This document shows positions 576 to 61,948 of a stretch of DNA of 64,000 nt, piece by piece. Under the pieces are notes generated by a model. The model was given only the letters and a program-made list of their open reading frames with translations, searched no databases and was not told the DNA's origin. Both the position numbers and the translations under genes were made by a program. How positions within the stretch are numbered: position 1 is the stretch's first letter; each line of letters opens with the position of its first letter. Origin of the DNA: Schizochytrium sp. TIO01 (Eukaryota; Sar; Bigyra; Thraustochytrida; Thraustochytriidae); the NCBI GenBank assembly GCA_004764695.1, contig SMSO01000014.1, positions 5,818,029-5,882,028 on the forward strand, read 5' to 3'.

Positions 576-694
576 ATGTTTAACATTAGATGTTTACAAA
601 AAGAGCAATTGAACATATATACCTACTCTAACAATATGGAATAAGCTATACAAATAAAATCGGTGGAAATATATAACCTCCAAATAGTACTAGT

Positions 695-830
695 GTCTCT
701 TAGATTTTAAACTACAAAATTTGCAAAACTTGCATTTCATAGAAGGAGCTAAGACTCCATCACGGACTAGTTAGACTAACCCGCGACTCAATGAAATGAT
801 TTTTTTTAAATCATGTCCTTGGATAGGTAG
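695..830 (-). ncRNA. Candidate omega/guide RNA and right end of Fanzor copy 1
   Basis: Immediately after the tnpB stop (806-808) lies the box TGAGTCGC (complement of 783-790), conserved in all four copies. It is followed by a perfect GTTAG-T-CTAAC hairpin (770-780) and a GGAG/CTCC hairpin (745-758), then AATGCA. Equivalent positions in the other copies carry different but still pairing stems. Known TnpB and Fanzor guide RNAs overlap the 3-prime end of the nuclease gene and the right end. The RNA boundaries given here are approximate and no transcription evidence exists. Confidence 0.5.
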
Positions 831-2257
831 CGTAAAAGGATGCCTCTTGCGGCATGGACATCACGGTCTGCTACATGGTTGCACTTGAGATTAGGGCATT
901 GGAAAACCTTGGATGCCCCGAGTTTATGGTGGAGGGTACCGCACTCATTGCATGTTTTTGAAGTGTAGCTCTCTTGGCAAAGAACAAGCTTGCACCACGG
1001 GAACATCTCAGCCTTATGAATGAGAGCCTGGCGGAACCCAAAATGGGACCAACGACACATCATTCGAACAGACTTCTTGGATATCCGTCGCTCCATCCTC
1101 CTGCTCATCTTAGAGGTTTCGAATTTAGGCAAGAGAATAACACGATAGTTTTCACAAAGCCAAAGCGCGAGCTTGCGGTGAATCTCAGTGATCTTGTTCT
1201 TGATCTTGAGTTGGGCGCGATAGAAGGCGCGCTTCAAGGGGGTGTTGAAATCGTATGCAGTTTTCTTTTTATTTTCTTGAGCTTTATCAATCCTGCTTTG
1301 GATCTTATCAACGCGGCGACAGAGATAGAATATGGTTCTAAAATCTTTCCCTGTGCCCCATTCAATGGCGCGGCCATCAGCATCATACATCGTCTGAAAC
1401 GAGCGAACACCTGGATCTAGAGCAATGACACTGTGGTGCGCCTTGGGTGCCTGGTCCATTGGACGCTTTTCTTCTTCTCGTAAGAAGCAGAAGTACACAT
1501 GCCCAAGGCGATTCATTTGCACACGCATGGCGTTCTTAATCTGACTGGGGAACTTTTCTTTGCGCGTACGAAACTCTTTTAGAAAGCTGGTGGTCTTTGA
1601 TTTCTCCGTATTCCAGATACGTGCGTTCACTTCGAAAATCTGTGATTCATCACGCTTGGTCCGAAACTTATAAAAAGATTGCTCATGAACTTTCTTTTGT
1701 ACAGCGAGTTCTTCGTTTTTGGCTCGTCCAGAGTTAAGAGCCTTGAAGAAATCCAGAATCCCGGAATCACGGATAGCCTGTGGGACCTCGAGAACCCATT
1801 CAGGAGCATCATGCCTTTCTTTAGATCGAACGGCTTTCTTTTCTCCATAGAGGGCACCATACGTTTGGGGATTCCCATCTTCATCTACTAAAACCTGCTT
1901 CGTCTTGGAATCCTTTTTGATGCACGCTTCTTGATGCAATTTGATGGCTTCTTCATCGCCCTTCGCCACGTCTCGGTGAAACGCAACGCCAGTATTGTAG
2001 GCTCTTCTAGTGACACCAAACCATTTAAGCAACTGTGTACGCTGATCTTTAGTAGGGTATACCCTGACCTTTTTGGCACGGACAAGGTCATATTCTTTCT
2101 TGATGGTCTTGCGCGCCTTCGTGCGAGCTCGCTTCTTCCTCGCTGCGTCGTCGCCGTCTATTTTGCGCTGCTCGTTTTCCGTGATGCGATGCCACAAAGA
2201 CGGTGATGATTCCGAGGAGGTCTTTGGTGAAGGTGTCTGCGTCTCCGGCATGTGCAT
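806..2257 (-). CDS. TnpB/Fanzor2-like RNA-guided nuclease
   Basis: This protein of about 483 residues carries the three RuvC acidic residues of TnpB/Fanzor nucleases: Asp in ALDPGVRSF (about 281), Glu in LLPKFETSK (about 380) and Asp in ADRDVHAARG (about 466). A zinc ribbon lies between the last two (CNEC about 436-439, then CPNLKC about 454-459). The N-terminal part has the TnpB opening KKVRVYPTKDQ...LLKWFGVTRRAYN. Two nearby ATGs (2257 and 2251) are plausible starts. The frame stays open upstream to 2746 but has no ATG at its far end. Known Fanzor2 proteins use an RNA from the gene's 3-prime side to guide DNA cleavage, so activity here is inferred. One oddity is that the second zinc pair is C-x4-C, whereas copy 3 retains C-x2-C. 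Confidence 0.88.
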   Translation of the reverse strand: MHMPETQTPSPKTSSESSPSLWHRITENEQRKIDGDDAARKKRARTKARKTIKKEYDLVRAKKVRVYPTKDQRTQLLKWFGVTRRAYNTGVAFHRDVAKGDEEAIKLHQEACIKKDSKTKQVLVDEDGNPQTYGALYGEKKAVRSKERHDAPEWVLEVPQAIRDSGILDFFKALNSGRAKNEELAVQKKVHEQSFYKFRTKRDESQIFEVNARIWNTEKSKTTSFLKEFRTRKEKFPSQIKNAMRVQMNRLGHVYFCFLREEEKRPMDQAPKAHHSVIALDPGVRSFQTMYDADGRAIEWGTGKDFRTIFYLCRRVDKIQSRIDKAQENKKKTAYDFNTPLKRAFYRAQLKIKNKITEIHRKLALWLCENYRVILLPKFETSKMSRRMERRISKKSVRMMCRWSHFGFRQALIHKAEMFPWCKLVLCQESYTSKTCNECGTLHHKLGASKVFQCPNLKCNHVADRDVHAARGILLRYLSKDMI

Positions 2258-2786
2258 CTTGGCCGTGTACCACGATTTTGACATTTTTTCTTTCGAAAAG
2301 GTGTTCCAGGAGGTCGACTGCGATTCGCGCAAGTCGGTCGCGGTGCATGACCACAACTTGGCCGATTCCGCCGCGGTCACAGGCGTCCAGTAGGGAGCAC
2401 AGGCCTTGGCGTTTGAAATTGACCCCGCTACCGATGTCTTTGTAGACGGCGGAAGCATCTGGGTAGGCGCGCTGGAGATCGCCAACCTGGCGTTCGAGGT
2501 CCTCCTTTTGCTTGGCCGAGGACACTCTGGCGTAGATAACGGTACATCCAGAGCTGCGTTGCTCGCGGCCGGTGGAACCGCAATCAAAGATGCGCTCAAC
2601 ATCGTCGCAGGCGTAGATGCGCTTGCCTCCGGGGAAGCGCGCGCAGCGCACGCGTCCGCCATCGGCCCAGCCCCGAAGGGCGCTTGCTGAGACCCCAAAC
2701 TTCCGGTGAAAGAACTTTGCTGGTTTGTATTCGAGGTTTGTTCCACTTGCAGTGTTTGGAGCTTGGCGGTTCCTTGGCCTCCCCAT
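2088..2786 (-). CDS. tnpA: IS607-family TnpA serine recombinase
   Basis: This 232-residue protein has the IS607 transposase layout: an N-terminal MerR-like helix-turn-helix (about residues 20-67) followed by a resolvase catalytic domain. The nucleophile is Ser89 in YARVSS, followed by KQKEDLERQ. Further family landmarks are DIGSGVNFKR (about 117-126), the arginine motif HRDRLAR (about 148-154) and, near the end, DLLGIITVF with a GKR tail. The start is the ATG at 2786, the first in frame, and it is preserved in copy 2. Serine transposases of this family cut and join DNA at a dinucleotide core through a 5-prime phosphoserine intermediate. The 3-prime end overlaps tnpB by about 170 nt in another frame, a typical IS607 arrangement. 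It is bacterial-type in origin but sits among eukaryotic genes. Confidence 0.9.
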   Translation of the reverse strand: MGRPRNRQAPNTASGTNLEYKPAKFFHRKFGVSASALRGWADGGRVRCARFPGGKRIYACDDVERIFDCGSTGREQRSSGCTVIYARVSSAKQKEDLERQVGDLQRAYPDASAVYKDIGSGVNFKRQGLCSLLDACDRGGIGQVVVMHRDRLARIAVDLLEHLFERKNVKIVVHGQDAHAGDADTFTKDLLGIITVFVASHHGKRAAQNRRRRRSEEEASSHEGAQDHQERI

Positions 2787-2957
2787 TTTCTTACCTAACT
2801 ACTCCACTTCTTATTAAAGATCTAACTAAGTATAATATATGATTAATATGAAACAAGCACATCGAAATATAAGTTATCGAAATTTTAACGGTTTTTGTCA
2901 TACTGCTCCAAATAAATGATATAGAAGTCTGCTAAGACATGGAGACTGGGTAAGAAA

Positions 2958-3430
2958 ATGGCACGGCCAAGGAACCACCAAGGTCCAAACGCTACAAGTG
3001 AAGCAAACTTTCAATAGAATCCAGGAGAGTACCTCAACCAGAAGTTTGACGTATCGGTAAGTGCGAGACAAGTGCATGTATGCAAATGACGATGTTGAGT
3101 GCATCTGTCGCTGCAGTTCCGGTGGCCGCGAGCAATGCAGCTCTGACTGTACCAGTATCTCCCCGAGTGTCCTTTGCCAACCAATATAGAATCTCAAACG
3201 CGAGACTTTTGGTCTCCAGCGTGTTGTCGACAAAGACATTGGTAGCGGGGTCAACCTCAAAAGGCCGGGATTGCGTGCCTTACTGGATGCCTGTGACGAA
3301 GTCAGCCAGTTTGTCGACCAAGTTGCGCAAGTCGCCGTTGACATCCACATCTCAAAAGAAAAAGAAGAAGAACTCGTGATACACCACCAAGATGCACATG
3401 CCGGAGACTCTGACACCTTCTTGGCATCGT
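2958..3430 (+). pseudogene. tnpA remnant of copy 2
   Basis: The start MARPRNHQGPNA matches the beginning of copy 1 TnpA, but a TAG stop falls at codon 20 (3015). Further on, fragments of the recombinase domain (SSKRP-like and LRALLDACD segments around 3200-3300) appear in more than one frame. The helix-turn-helix and catalytic serine regions are disrupted, so no active recombinase is expected. The end coordinate is approximate because the remnant runs into the tnpB overlap. Confidence 0.75.
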
Positions 3431-4202
3431 CACTGTCTTTGTGGTCTCGCATCACGGATAACGAGCAGCGCACAATAGACAGCGCCAACTTAGCGAGGAA
3501 GAAGAGGGCACGTGCGAAGAAAGAGTATAATCTATTTTGTGCTGGGGATATTCGTGTCTATCCAACGAAAGACAGGCCCTTTCAAGTTAAAGAATGGTTT
3601 GACGTTACCAGAAGAGCTTACAACATTGGCGTTGCCTTCATTATGACTTGTCCAAAGGTAAAGACGAAGTGTGGCCCTTCATCAGGATGCATGCATCAGA
3701 AAGTCCTAAAACGAAGGAAGCCCTGAAGACGAAACAGGCAACCCTAAAATGTTCGCTATAACTACAGAGTAAGACGTGCATACATACGCGTTATCCTCAA
3801 TACCAAGAGCAAAACCGAGGTTCGCCACAAACTTGTACTTTGGCTCTATGAATATGACCGTGTTATCCATTTGCCTGAATTTGAAACCTCCCAAATTGTT
3901 AATAAATTAACAGGATGAACTAAAATAAAGAGGTTTCGAATAATGTGACGCTGGGTCACTTTATATTCCGCCAAGCGTTCATTCACAAAGGCGAGCTTTT
4001 CCCCTAGTGTAAGCTTGTTATTTGCCGAAAGGCTTACACTTTCTAAAAACATGCAATGAATCTGGTGCCATCCATGGAAAACCTCGGAATCCAAAGGTTT
4101 CAAATGCCTCAAATGCAAACACATAACCAATAGCGATATCCACGCCGTCGAAGCCATCCTTTTGCGCTACATATACAAAGAAATTATTTTAAAATGTCTT
4201 TG
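3388..4202 (+). pseudogene. tnpB/Fanzor2 remnant of copy 2
   Basis: The N-terminal part is readable (SLWSRITDNEQRTID, then AKKEYNL, VYPTKD and WFDVTRRAYNIGVAF) up to a frameshift near 3640. After an internal deletion around 3760-3790 the C-terminal part resumes with HKLVLWLYEYDRVIHLPEFE (3820-3880), more stops, and finally KCLKCKH and DIHAVEAILLRYI before 4202. The first RuvC aspartate region is absent, so the nuclease is dead. In this copy one continuous frame (3271-3726) runs from tnpA-derived into tnpB-derived sequence, the result of a frameshift. Confidence 0.8.
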
Positions 4203-4521
4203 AGTCGCAGTTTAGATTATTAACCTGCAATTGGGCCTTAAGCCCACGTCACCGTAGGAAATGCAGTTTTTATAGGTAAAGACGAAGTGTTCTTGATCCC
4301 TACTTGGGCTCAGAGATGATTCAACGCTTTTAAAAAGGAAGATACTAGAAACTTGAGAACGATCAATAAATTATTAAGGACTATCAGAGCATATCTGAGC
4401 GTACCTGTGAGGATACAGCACAGCAATGGTTGGGCATGACAGATTGAAGGTTTAACTTTGCGATTCTACTACTACTACAACACTGAAATTTGTCTCAAAG
4501 AACATTCCGCTGAAGGTCGTC

Positions 4522-24614: not shown

Positions 24615-25485
24615 CCATATTAATCAATAAGTGGAGGAGGCTAAGTAAAAAAATTGGCATGGCCAAGGAACTACCAAGCTCCAAACACTACAAGTTAATA
24701 AAACCTACAATACAAGCCGTGAAAGTACTTCAAGCGGAAGCTTGGCGTCTCAGCAGATGCCCGTTGGGCGAGCAATCGCATATATGCAAGTGACGACATT
24801 AAGCGCAAGTATGACTGAGGTTTGTTCCGGCGGCCGCGAGCAACGCAGTTTTGACTGAACCATTATTTACGCCAGAGTGTCCTCCGACAAGAAAGACTAG
24901 AATTTAAAATGCTAAATTGGTGATCTTCAGCGTTACAGACGCCCCCGCCGTCTACAAAGGCAGCGGTAGCGGGGTCGACCTCAAAAGGCTGGGCTTACGT
25001 GCCCTACCGGACTACCGAGATTCGCCGCAAGCTTGCACTTTGACTCTGTGAAAACTACCATGCCATCCTTTTAACTAAATTGTGAAACCTCCCAGATGGT
25101 CAACAAGTTGCCAAAACGGATCAAAACCAACCCAGTTCGAATGATATGTTGTTAGCTACCAGCAAGCGCTCATTCTCAAAGCCAAATTTTTCTTCTGGTG
25201 TAAACCATTTATTTGCTGAGAGGATTGTACTTCAAAAACATGCAATAATTGTACCATCCACGACAAACTCGGAGCATCCAAGGTTTTAAGGTGCCCTAAA
25301 TGCAAACATGAAGCCGATCGTGATATCCACGCCGCTAGGGGCATCATTTTGCGCTACATATCCAAGCACATGACCTAAAATTTGTCTTTGAGTCGCGGGT
25401 TAGTTTTGTAAAACGAAGCCGTGATTTGGTCCTTAGCGTCACGTCACCATAGGAAATGCAAAGTTTATAGGTTAATTCCTCAGTG
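24615..25485 (+). mobile_element. Non-autonomous IS607/Fanzor2 derivative, copy 3
   Basis: This element of about 0.87 kb has the family left end (CATATTAATCAATAAGTGG...), the first half of tnpA, and then, at about 25,010-25,015, an abrupt switch into the last third of tnpB. Its 3-prime side keeps TGAGTCGC (25389-25396), a GTTTT-GT-AAAAC hairpin (25403-25414), CGTGA/TCACG pairing (25420-25443) and AGGAAATGCA. The tnpA::tnpB junction is the same as in copy 4, although the two are about 35 kb apart. Neither gene is functional. Confidence 0.85.
24655..25378 (+). pseudogene. tnpA::tnpB deletion fusion remnant (copy 3)
   Basis: The tnpA part keeps the start region (AAGGAACTACCAAGCTCC) and DIGSGVDLKRLGLRALPDY-like sequence, with stops in between. 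The tnpB part begins at the equivalent of EIHRKLALWL. It reaches the zinc ribbon, which here reads CPKCKHEADRDIHAARG with the usual C-x2-C spacing, and ends ILRYISKHMT before the stop at 25376-25378. About 1.2 kb relative to copy 1 is missing between the halves. Confidence 0.8.
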
Positions 25486-60251: not shown

Positions 60252-61140
60252 AACACTTAGTATTTAATTTATAAAATTTGCAAACTGCATTCCCTATGGT
60301 AACAAAATGGCCCCCATAGCGAGTTATTTTTTAACCAGCGACTCAAAGACAGTTCTTAAATCATGCCCTTGGGTATGTAGCGCAAAAGGATACATCTGGT
60401 GGTGTGTATATCACGATCGCCTGCGTTTTTGCATTTTTTGGGGGCTTTGGAAACTTTGCATGTTCCGAGATTGTCGTAGATGATACCACATTCATTGCAT
60501 GACTTTGCAGTGCAATCCTTTCGGCAAATGACTATTTTACACCGTTGAAGGAATGAATTTCGGCTTTGTAAATGAGCGTTTGTCGAAAGTCAACGAATGA
60601 CACATCATTTGAGCTGTCTTGATTTTGATCCATCTTATCTACTTGTGGAGTTTCCAAATTTAGGCAAGGATAGTTTTCACAGAACCAAAGTCCAAGCTTA
60701 TGGTGAATCCCGGTAGCCCAGTAGGGCGCGCAAGCCCAGCCTTTTGAAGTTGGACTCTCTACCGATGTCTTTGTAGATAGCGGATGCATCTAGATAGGTA
60801 TGCTTGAGGTCCGTCAGCAATCTGGCATTTAAAATTCTCGTTTTGCTTTTGCTTGGCGGAGGATTCTATGGCGTAGATAATGGCCCGGCAAGTGCTGCGT
60901 TGCTCACAGCCATGGGTGAGCTCAACATCGTCTCTTGCGTATATGCGGTTGGCTCCCGAGAGGCACCCGAAGAGCACTTGCTGAGGCGCCAAATTTCTTG
61001 TTGGAGGACTTTGATAACTTGAATTGAAGATTTATATCACTTATAGTGTTTAGGCCTTGGTTCCTTGGCTATTCCAGTTTCTTATATAACCTTTACTTCT
61101 TAATAAAGACCTAAATAATAATAAAAATATCATTTATATG
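60252..61140 (-). mobile_element. Non-autonomous IS607/Fanzor2 derivative, copy 4
   Basis: An element of about 0.89 kb on the minus strand. Its left end (about 61080-61140) aligns with that of copy 1 through CTTCTTAATAAAGA. Its right end keeps TGAGTCGC (complement of 60338-60345), a GTTA/TAAC hairpin (60323-60335), a CTATGG/CCATAG pairing (60294-60319) and TTTGCAAATTTT, ending CTAAGTGTT at about 60252. The tnpA 5-prime part is fused to the tnpB 3-prime part at about 60,705-60,715, at the same place as in copy 3. Confidence 0.85.
60356..61076 (-). pseudogene. tnpA::tnpB deletion fusion remnant (copy 4)
   Basis: The tnpA start codon has become CTG and a stop falls within the first codons. The recombinase segments are in broken frames, and the left half ends at the equivalent of GLRALL. 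The tnpB half begins near the EIHRKL equivalent and keeps CNECG and, at the end, DRDIHTTRCILLRYIPKGMI before the stop. The second zinc cysteine pair is damaged (KAPKKCKNAGDRD). No functional product is expected. Confidence 0.8.
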
Positions 61141-61948
61141 GAATAATAACGACGTACCATTTTGAGTTTATATAAAGTTCTCACGTTTTCATAGCTACAG
61201 TTTGCGATACACGCAAATATATAAAATTCTCAATGTACTTTGCTAAAGCTAACTTCGGGAAACGGGTGATTCTACATAATGTAGCTTGTAACTTACTTCA
61301 AAGGGAAAATATTGAGAAAAGGAAAAGGGACAACTTCAGGAGGCCCTTTAATTCAACACGTACAAAGATTTTATAATGAAGAAGAAAGATTTATTGTAGA
61401 ATGTTTACTAGATTTGTCTCCTTCAGGTCCAAAATATCGCGAATCGTACACGCGAATCTGATGTGAATTTTATGTAATGTGAGGGGGAAACAGTATATTT
61501 GATTTCGATGCCGCAGCTGTGTAGACAGCTGCTGCGGCAGGGAGACCGTATACTACCATGATGTCGTAAAGGGTAAATGGTGAATGGTGATGAAGATTGG
61601 GCGATTGTCCAGTCAAATGAGTTGATGATCAGTATGCCACAGTCAAACAATCAAAGAAACGAGGCTGTGCCGAGTGATCGTACAATTAAGACGGTACCAA
61701 GCAATGATGTCTCTCTACTTTATGCGGTAAAAAAAAAACAACTTGAAAGTGCATGTGTCTCAAAGTCGTGAAGAGTTTCAAGAAGTGAAAGCCTGCAAAC
61801 GGTGACATGCAAAACTCTGTTTGGTAGGAATTCGCTTTGTAAGCAACATGGGGGACCTACGAAACGCTATGAAAAAAAAGTGCAGATCGCAAGCCAAGCC
61901 AAACCAAACGTAATTCAAGCTGGATAAAAGAGTTTGATGGAAGGCTGC
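61141..61948. other. Spacer
   Basis: AT-rich sequence with no supported gene. CAGCTGTGTAGACAGCTGCTG near 61,514 is a short imperfect palindrome. Confidence 0.35.

Follow-up and report, generated by a model that had tools for sequence, protein, structure and literature searches.

An IS607-type Fanzor2 transposon in Schizochytrium sp. TIO01 with a TnpB extension probably overprinted on tnpA

IS607-type Fanzor2 elements are known in eukaryotes (Bao and Jurka 2013, PMC3627910; Yoon et al. 2023, PMC10711439; these and the other papers are cited here from excerpts of their text), and Fanzor2s are studied as RNA-guided nucleases. Yoon et al. (PMC10711439) gave the Fanzor signature as a DPG motif together with a Glu six residues before the zinc ribbon, and the same source describes a right-end RNA (reRNA) made of stem-loops and a pseudoknot as well as, for ISXfa1, a GG crossover and a GGG motif. 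NlovFz2 and MmeFz2 have N-terminal disordered regions of 96 and 61 amino acids (aa), respectively (Saito et al. 2023, PMC10432273), and the biological role of Fanzor is described as unknown in the excerpts of the same paper. IS607 forms with overlapping or separate genes have been mentioned (PMC9956272), while our literature search, with subscription papers mostly outside it, found no report of a full-length tnpA/tnpB overlap or overprinting among the matches listed, and the word "overlap" was not found in the excerpts of PMC11423790. Here, we analyzed 64,000 nucleotides of Schizochytrium sp. TIO01 (contig SMSO01000014.1, positions 5,818,029 to 5,882,028; this whole stretch is called the window), and comparison of frames and copies revealed an intact IS607-type element on its minus strand at 697-2904. 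A first-pass annotation had placed an intact element at 695-2850; the frames are indeed intact and uninterrupted, while the extent proved to be 697 to about 2904 on the minus strand, the earlier interval being slightly short at the left end because similarity among copies reaches about 2904. Judged from its sequence, this is very probably an autonomous, recently active IS607-type Fanzor2/pro-Fanzor transposon of a nuclear genome, with an N-terminal extension of TnpB overprinted on tnpA.

The tnpB frame across tnpA

The tnpB frame, which is +1 relative to tnpA, contains no stop over 231 of the 232 tnpA codons in the window; that it runs through all of tnpA was missed by the first-pass annotation. 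When tnpA was shuffled synonymously, keeping the TnpA protein and codon usage, the openness of the +1 frame had a P value of 0.009, while the +2 frame was ordinary. The same +1 openness was found in a Microcoleus phage element (OR578706.1; P = 0.001), which is 35.9% identical over 329 aa.

The comparison was extended to cyanobacterial and phage relatives (loci are given by L numbers). When 291 genomes from the class to which a Symploca genome belongs were searched, 16 had matches at an E value of 1e-40 or better, and 33 cyanobacterial/phage loci were examined, 20 of which had a tnpA recognized by pattern and 16 of which were used (L090, L108, L110, and L115 were left out). Together with the window they make 17 elements in 11 clusters, and their +1 frames stay open for 155-218 tnpA codons. 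Finding no stop had a probability of 0.02 or less for 13 of the 17 elements and of 0.035-0.12 for four. Since the scored stretch begins where the +1 frame opens, zero stops are given by construction in this set, and the length of the open stretch is its sole informative quantity. The tnpB alignment reached the extension in 26 of 32 cyanobacterial loci (some being self-matches), and none of these 26 had a stop between the first Met of the query and the end of the overlap. Stops were present elsewhere in the tnpB alignment of L090, L092, L100, L105, L106, L112, L115, and L116, and in tnpA in 7 of the 26 loci (L083, L087, L088, L093, L094, L109, and L111), L109 being without a tnpA stop upon nucleotide realignment of the overlap.

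Viral relatives were searched for with an eight-row alignment of the family (A3), which gave 73 viral-contig loci; exact peptide patterns of the window proteins confirmed none, nor did a two-row alignment (A2), whose profile search of genome contigs gave 12 loci that were used as canonical TnpBs and led on to a cyanobacterial genome. A tnpA was present in 49 of the 73 viral loci, and 44 of these showed an overlap of 206-738 nucleotides (nt), while the remaining five (four short TnpBs and one fragment) overlapped by 23-56 nt. The 49 loci were reduced to 36 non-redundant ones, of which 30 had tnpB frames of 440 aa or more and were combined, so that frame length entered the selection of this set. 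All 30 had a low +1 probability (P = 0.003-0.040; combined, 1.6e-37), while the combined P value for the +2 frame over all 36 was 0.93. Six plasmid-borne canonical IS607 elements served as controls (L117, L118, L119, L120, L122, and L124). They had ordinary numbers of +1 stops, their annotated tnpA/tnpB overlaps were 7 nt or less, tnpB was in the +2 frame in five of them, and the tnpB frame was open for only 3-141 nt upstream of its start. These data suggested that a dual-coding overlap is common to the clade with DPG and the alternative Glu and was inherited by the eukaryotic element.

Constraint on the extension and alternative readings

In a +1 overlap, third codon positions of tnpA coincide with second codon positions of tnpB. 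Fourfold sites were more conserved in the tnpA overlap than in non-overlapping tnpB in all 19 disjoint pairs, with P < 0.05 for 13 when tested individually; pairs of more than 90% TnpA identity or fewer than 20 fourfold sites were dropped. Pooled fourfold identity was 418/729 (57%) in the overlap versus 458/1348 (34%) outside it, and the canonical controls showed no such rise (135/404 versus 205/578, in six non-independent pairs from four elements). In the eukaryotic family, where third-position tests covered 8 of 13 pairs and used rounded denominators, changes at third positions were rarer in tnpA than in tnpB for L009 versus L017, L020, L022, L015, and L025 (P = 1.5e-5 to 0.016), and the L009/L018 pair was borderline (P = 0.056). 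Thus, the second frame appears to be under amino-acid constraint in the clade, while the eukaryotic family is supportive but mixed.

In the predicted protein sequence of the extension, W92, S130, and W131 (618-aa window numbering), all in the overprinted part, were invariant in 25 aligned full frames. The TnpA Leu codon that underlies W92 was found in 39 of 42 overlap elements and ended in G in 35 of the 39; the four non-G codons give F instead of W in the second frame, and there the pattern was probably matched one codon early. The SWF of the profile was matched to an SWY that precedes the core of L79. An SW pattern was found in 42 of 44 long-overlap viral loci (L167 and L170 lacked it) and in none of L172-L175, the short DLG elements, which have neither the PYW nor the SW motif. 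The motif-based split of the viral loci nearly equals the length-based one; several loci escape the PYW pattern because the residue preceding YW or FW differs, and the DxG column may match an earlier motif inside the extension. Two viral loci in which tnpA was undetected, L138 and L153, retained both motifs with a changed spacing. In 13 of the 16 cyanobacterial/phage elements, an ATG is found no more than about 10 codons from the frame opening, while the first AUG of the window frame is at codon 29. These results pointed to a TnpB that carries a Fanzor2/pro-Fanzor N-terminal extension overprinted on tnpA.

How such a protein would be started is suggested by the AUGs. After the tnpA AUG (AAGAAAATGG), the next two, at 2662 and 2602, belong to the tnpB frame, which would allow tnpB to be translated by leaky scanning past the tnpA AUG, a mechanism that we offer as a conjecture.

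A number of observations weigh against overprinting. Upon nucleotide realignment, the TnpA frame was better conserved than the +1 frame in 15 of 15 pairs, and L083 had one +1 stop that is not in the protein alignment. For three pairs between the window and cyanobacterial/phage elements, fourfold identity was raised but not significantly (P = 0.26-0.33), and L018/L017 and L018/L020 showed no drop in third-position change in tnpA. Mean conservation over the 25 frames was 0.41 for the extension versus 0.48 for the core. The Leu codon ends in G in three of six canonical elements as well, which makes it a weak control. As for expression, the tnpA AUG has a strong context, and the first AUG of the tnpB frame (2662) is missing from several copies.

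The 15 realigned pairs and some of the L018 pairs also favor a different account, in which something else, such as DNA or RNA signals or the codon composition of tnpA, keeps the +1 frame open, and TnpB starts only near the end of tnpA. Furthermore, synonymous shuffling controls for codon usage and not for DNA-level signals, and long frames partly decided the choice of the 17-element and viral sets. We nevertheless regard this account as unlikely, as the +2 frame showed no such effect, the six canonical elements have no long open frame, the four compared pairwise lack the fourfold effect, and the +1 frame holds invariant Trp and Ser residues. It is further opposed by L79, a TnpB chain in the Protein Data Bank (PDB) that has the SW motif too, by the retention of the motifs in L138 and L153, and by the ATGs near the frame opening in cyanobacterial/phage elements.

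Programmed frameshifting, yielding a TnpA-TnpB fusion instead of a separate long TnpB, would fit two frames that overlap throughout, and in L025 and L028 an open frame leads from tnpA sequence (HLFER) into tnpB sequence (KMSNSW/KMANSW). This possibility is rather improbable, since the second frame has start codons close to where it opens, the TnpA catalytic domain would be shortened by a shift near codon 166, and two viral loci have the extension motifs with tnpA undetected. As an observation apart, tnpA stops at the same early point (166 aa) in L013 and L019, in both of which tnpB is open.

With a separate, overprinted TnpB extension as the preferred reading, we slightly favor a wider scenario, in which the TnpB of the Fanzor-founding lineage gained an N-terminal domain of about 150-200 aa by overprinting the whole transposase gene, and this second frame is the source of the N-terminal extensions of eukaryotic and viral Fanzor2s. 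We also propose that the disordered regions of NlovFz2 and MmeFz2 may be derived from the same extension, which could serve in TnpA-TnpB coordination or, in eukaryotes, in nuclear work.

Family identity, ends and copies of the element

The 232-aa TnpA matched Pfam Resolvase (E = 6.6e-20, residues 83-216) and NF033518, the NCBIfam IS607 transposase (144.6 bits versus a cut-off of 110, residues 26-210), and thus shows the IS607 combination of a small serine recombinase and an N-terminal DNA-binding domain. Its PDB matches include 6dgc (ISC1926 TnpA catalytic domain) and 6dgb (IS607 family transposase IS1535). The frame is uninterrupted and the Ser of YARVSS is residue 89, so the catalytic Ser89 named by the first-pass annotation was correct. 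TnpB matched PF07282 (E = 5.7e-13, TNB) and PF12323 (E = 2.3e-9, OrfB helix-turn-helix), and its best PDB match was the TnpB-like protein L79 (9b0l), which we take to be of mimivirus origin. Three RuvC acids and a zinc ribbon had also been annotated; the acids were recovered as D444 (of DPG), E592, and D629 (646-aa frame numbering), with the Glu in the "alternative" Fanzor place beside the zinc ribbon (E592-x6-C). The ribbon is CX2C...CX4C rather than CX2C twice; the second knuckle is CX4C in the young family and CX2C in an older copy (L038). With this knuckle relaxed, the Fanzor pattern matched 16 of 26 copies scanned.

In a TnpB tree of 27 rows, in which L79 is a 191-aa fragment with 43% of the columns filled, a branch with 100/100 support separated the window, L79, 12 cyanobacterial/cyanophage rows, and one Vibrio phage row from 12 canonical TnpBs, and the window grouped with all pro-Fanzor-side rows except L79 at 100/98. 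The prokaryotic and phage rows are at most about 34-36% identical to the window TnpB, and the best matches in plasmid and phage collections were cyanobacterial or from cyanophage. The profile matches, DPG with the alternative Glu, the 100/100 branch, and the eukaryotic neighbors supported the first-pass assignment of the element to the IS607-type Fanzor2 elements and to a eukaryotic chromosome.

Some neighbors in the tree have features of their own. L085 (Vibrio phage F88) falls on the pro-Fanzor side with a TnpB that has DVG and whose gene comes after a 90-aa "transposase" gene. The cyanobacterial pro-Fanzors L098 and L102, with which L100 and L114 group, kept DPG and E.YTSKT and lost the zinc-ribbon cysteines (SKTVSWTGE).

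The right end of the element reads CTAAGAG, or CTAAGTG in older copies. The base that follows it is A or T in all 22 copies with a recognizable end and in 8 of 9 further copies (four decayed ends were left uncounted). At the left, CAG lies no more than 12 bases before the core in 15 of the 19 copies that have that core. Unlike the right end, the segment from CAG to the left core differs among copies in both length and sequence (L012, L015, L017, and L027; also L011, L020, L024, and L026). Empty sites were found for L020, one of 17 copies tested: two paralogues of 83% identity run straight through the junction, with AA where the flanks (TTAAC-AG-TAACATT) have AG. The ends, and L020 compared with its two paralogues, showed neither terminal inverted repeats nor a target duplication beyond the crossover dinucleotide. 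On the basis of the element ends and the empty-site comparison, insertion would take place at CAG|W with the crossover at AG, and not at GG as in ISXfa1. The crossover dinucleotide varies among IS607 members, so AG does not exclude membership. By analogy, a CAG-like motif may also be the target motif of the nuclease.

The last 175 nt of the element fold at -45.8 kcal/mol (z = -3.18). When a written structure of hairpins and a pseudoknot was placed on 25 right ends, 85.1% of the cells were paired, compared with 31.7-48.4% when it was slid along them, and the pseudoknot cells (CUUAG loop with the terminal CUAAG) were 88.8% paired with little covariation. RNAalifold predicted 15 pairs, 3 of which had changes on both sides. 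The predicted fold agrees in shape with the published reRNA pattern and is no proof of it.

Four points tell against the identity, ends, and RNA as assigned. TnpB scored 90.7 with NF040570, under the cut-off of 100; the strict pattern of Yoon et al., with CxxC as second knuckle, was found in 0 of the 26 copies because that knuckle is CX4C; CAG is absent at 4 of the 19 left ends; and three of five measures of right-end covariation were slightly over the shuffles while two were below the shuffled mean.

The features of the window are summarized in Table 1. In addition, a tRNA-Phe lies at 502-576, and at 2905-2949 the intact element and a decayed copy on the opposite strand meet left end to left end.

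Table 1. Coordinates of the element, its parts and related copies in the window
Feature	Position	Strand	Basis or remark
IS607-type Fanzor2 element	697..2904	-	Copy-to-copy similarity ends there, flanks differ
Left end, CAG/TATGACAAAAACC; right end, CTAAGAG	~2904; 697	-	Similarity limits between copies
tnpA, IS607 serine recombinase	2088..2786	-	ATG, 232 aa, uninterrupted
tnpA catalytic Ser89 codon	2522-2520	-	Motif YARVSSAKQKEDL (YARVSS Ser)
tnpB/Fanzor2 open frame	806..2746	-	646 codons from GTG, +1 relative to tnpA, stop at 806
tnpB-frame AUGs	2662, 2602, 2458	-	
Overprinted part, tnpA and putative TnpB N-terminal extension	2088..2662	-	Contains PYW and SWY motifs
Fanzor2 core, KVRVYP to C-terminus	809..2071	-	Profile and motif matches, tree
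RuvC D of DPG; alternative E; zinc ribbon; D	1417-1415; 973-971;; 862-860	-	
Predicted right-end RNA (reRNA/omegaRNA) scaffold	697..791	-	Three hairpins; 25 right ends aligned
Hairpin 2 loop CUUAG, potential pairing with CUAAG	703-699	-	Predicted pseudoknot
Presumed guide, first host bases past right end (first base A)	677..696	-	Inferred from position, flanks differ
Decayed old family member in head-to-head orientation to the intact element	2949..4215	+	
Old decayed, internally deleted copy	24620..25404	+	
Old decayed, internally deleted copy	60332..61146	-	

The assembly around the window comprises 64.06 Mb in 37 contigs. The neighbors of the element are eukaryotic, as the first-pass annotation had read the flanking genes and tRNA: 8 of 10 long window frames scanned matched Pfam, 60S L4, RPN11, CFAP58, PP2C, kinase, and RING proteins among them. 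A DNA search of the genome gave at least 62 matches to the element, at 65-100% identity and on many contigs (40 of 189 candidates scored), and four other full-length copies were 98.4-99.6% identical over the element. Both frames were kept in 8 of 20 near-full copies (in one of the 8, tnpB extends 20 codons beyond the usual stop), 6 had tnpB only, and 6 had a broken or cut tnpB. Hence, the window copy, valued at first as a rare intact one, does have both genes intact and is not unique. The flanks of the copies aligned for the end comparison differ, and a joined-flank search with 17 copies, whose counts are lower bounds, found matches at or beside their own sites only, except for the empty paralogues of L020. 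Because near-identical copies have different flanks, recent expansion and mobility of the family are supported, in line with the earlier suggestion that this copy may still move.

Five copies (L022, L023, L024, L026, and L030) share an insertion of about 295 bp after about codon 28 of tnpA. They lie at five separate places with the left end of the family, two of them being cut on the right. Since copies with this tnpA-breaking insertion occupy different places, they probably spread after it arose, with TnpA acting in trans, which agrees with the proposal that the intact element may supply proteins to other copies. The insertion holds a CCTAA-type tandem repeat resembling a telomere repeat (four copies inspected), and a spliced intron was rejected as its nature, since GT-AG boundaries were not found in these four copies.

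That the element is an inactive relic, its copies being near-identical through gene conversion and not through recent movement, draws on the fact that related copies may exchange sequence; we assign it a low probability, given the flanks of the 17 copies, which matched at or beside their own sites apart from L020, and the retention of both frames in 8 of 20 copies. IS607 elements are mainly prokaryotic and the best plasmid- and phage-collection matches are cyanobacterial or cyanophage, but a bacterial contaminant or a recent bacterial transfer without life in the eukaryote, contamination having been named as a refuting outcome by the first-pass annotation, is not credible, because at least 62 matches of 65-100% identity are spread over many contigs of a 64-Mb genome, a copy spectrum that refutes it, amid eukaryotic neighbors and with prokaryotic and phage identities of at most about 34-36%.

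For an autonomous, recently active transposon, the following scheme may be drawn. TnpA would excise and insert the element, with crossover at AG in CAG|W sites, and the right end would yield an RNA scaffold, with the host DNA immediately past the end serving as its guide. TnpB (Fanzor2), its N-terminal extension encoded in +1 over nearly all of tnpA, would with this RNA cut the unoccupied site beside a CAG motif, so that the element is kept or spread, as the family suggests. Translation and function of the extension, like the nuclease and transposition activities, are read from sequence in this scheme.

Comparison with known systems

If a conserved ancestral Fanzor2 extension is hidden in tnpA, part of the protein would be missing from constructs that start beyond this gene. 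Transposase and nuclease would then be linked more closely than tandem genes are, with both proteins tied to a single piece of sequence. A eukaryote whose IS607-Fanzor2 family is young and includes intact as well as broken copies, with two sites found empty, would be a system for testing the role of Fanzor directly.

Canonical IS607 elements likewise have tnpA followed by tnpB on one strand, while they differ in the frame of tnpB and the extent of the overlap, as given above (+2 in 5/6; 7 nt or less). NlovFz2 and MmeFz2 resemble the window TnpB, by description only, in their N-terminal disordered regions, which the excerpts of PMC10432273 do not link to tnpA. In L79 (9b0l), the SW motif also occurs in the N-terminal part, and the extension is shorter. 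The known IS607-like Fanzor2 elements are alike in pairing an IS607 serine recombinase with a DPG/alternative-Glu Fanzor2, in lacking terminal inverted repeats, and in a right-end RNA with a pseudoknot, predicted in the case of the window (PMC3627910 and PMC10711439). The window element differs from them in belonging to a multicopy family that is young and has kept both frames in 8 of 20 near-full copies, in the CX4C knuckle, in its probable crossover at AG instead of GG, and in its putative overprinted extension, which the excerpts of these two papers do not mention. As for the cyanobacterial/phage pro-Fanzor IS607 elements (the Microcoleus phage OR578706.1 and others), their ATG is nearer the frame opening in 13 of 16, and their identity to the window is about 34% in the tree alignment. 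They have DPG with the alternative Glu, an adjacent tnpA, and the +1 overlap, and the viral-contig elements related to them have the PYW and SW motifs.

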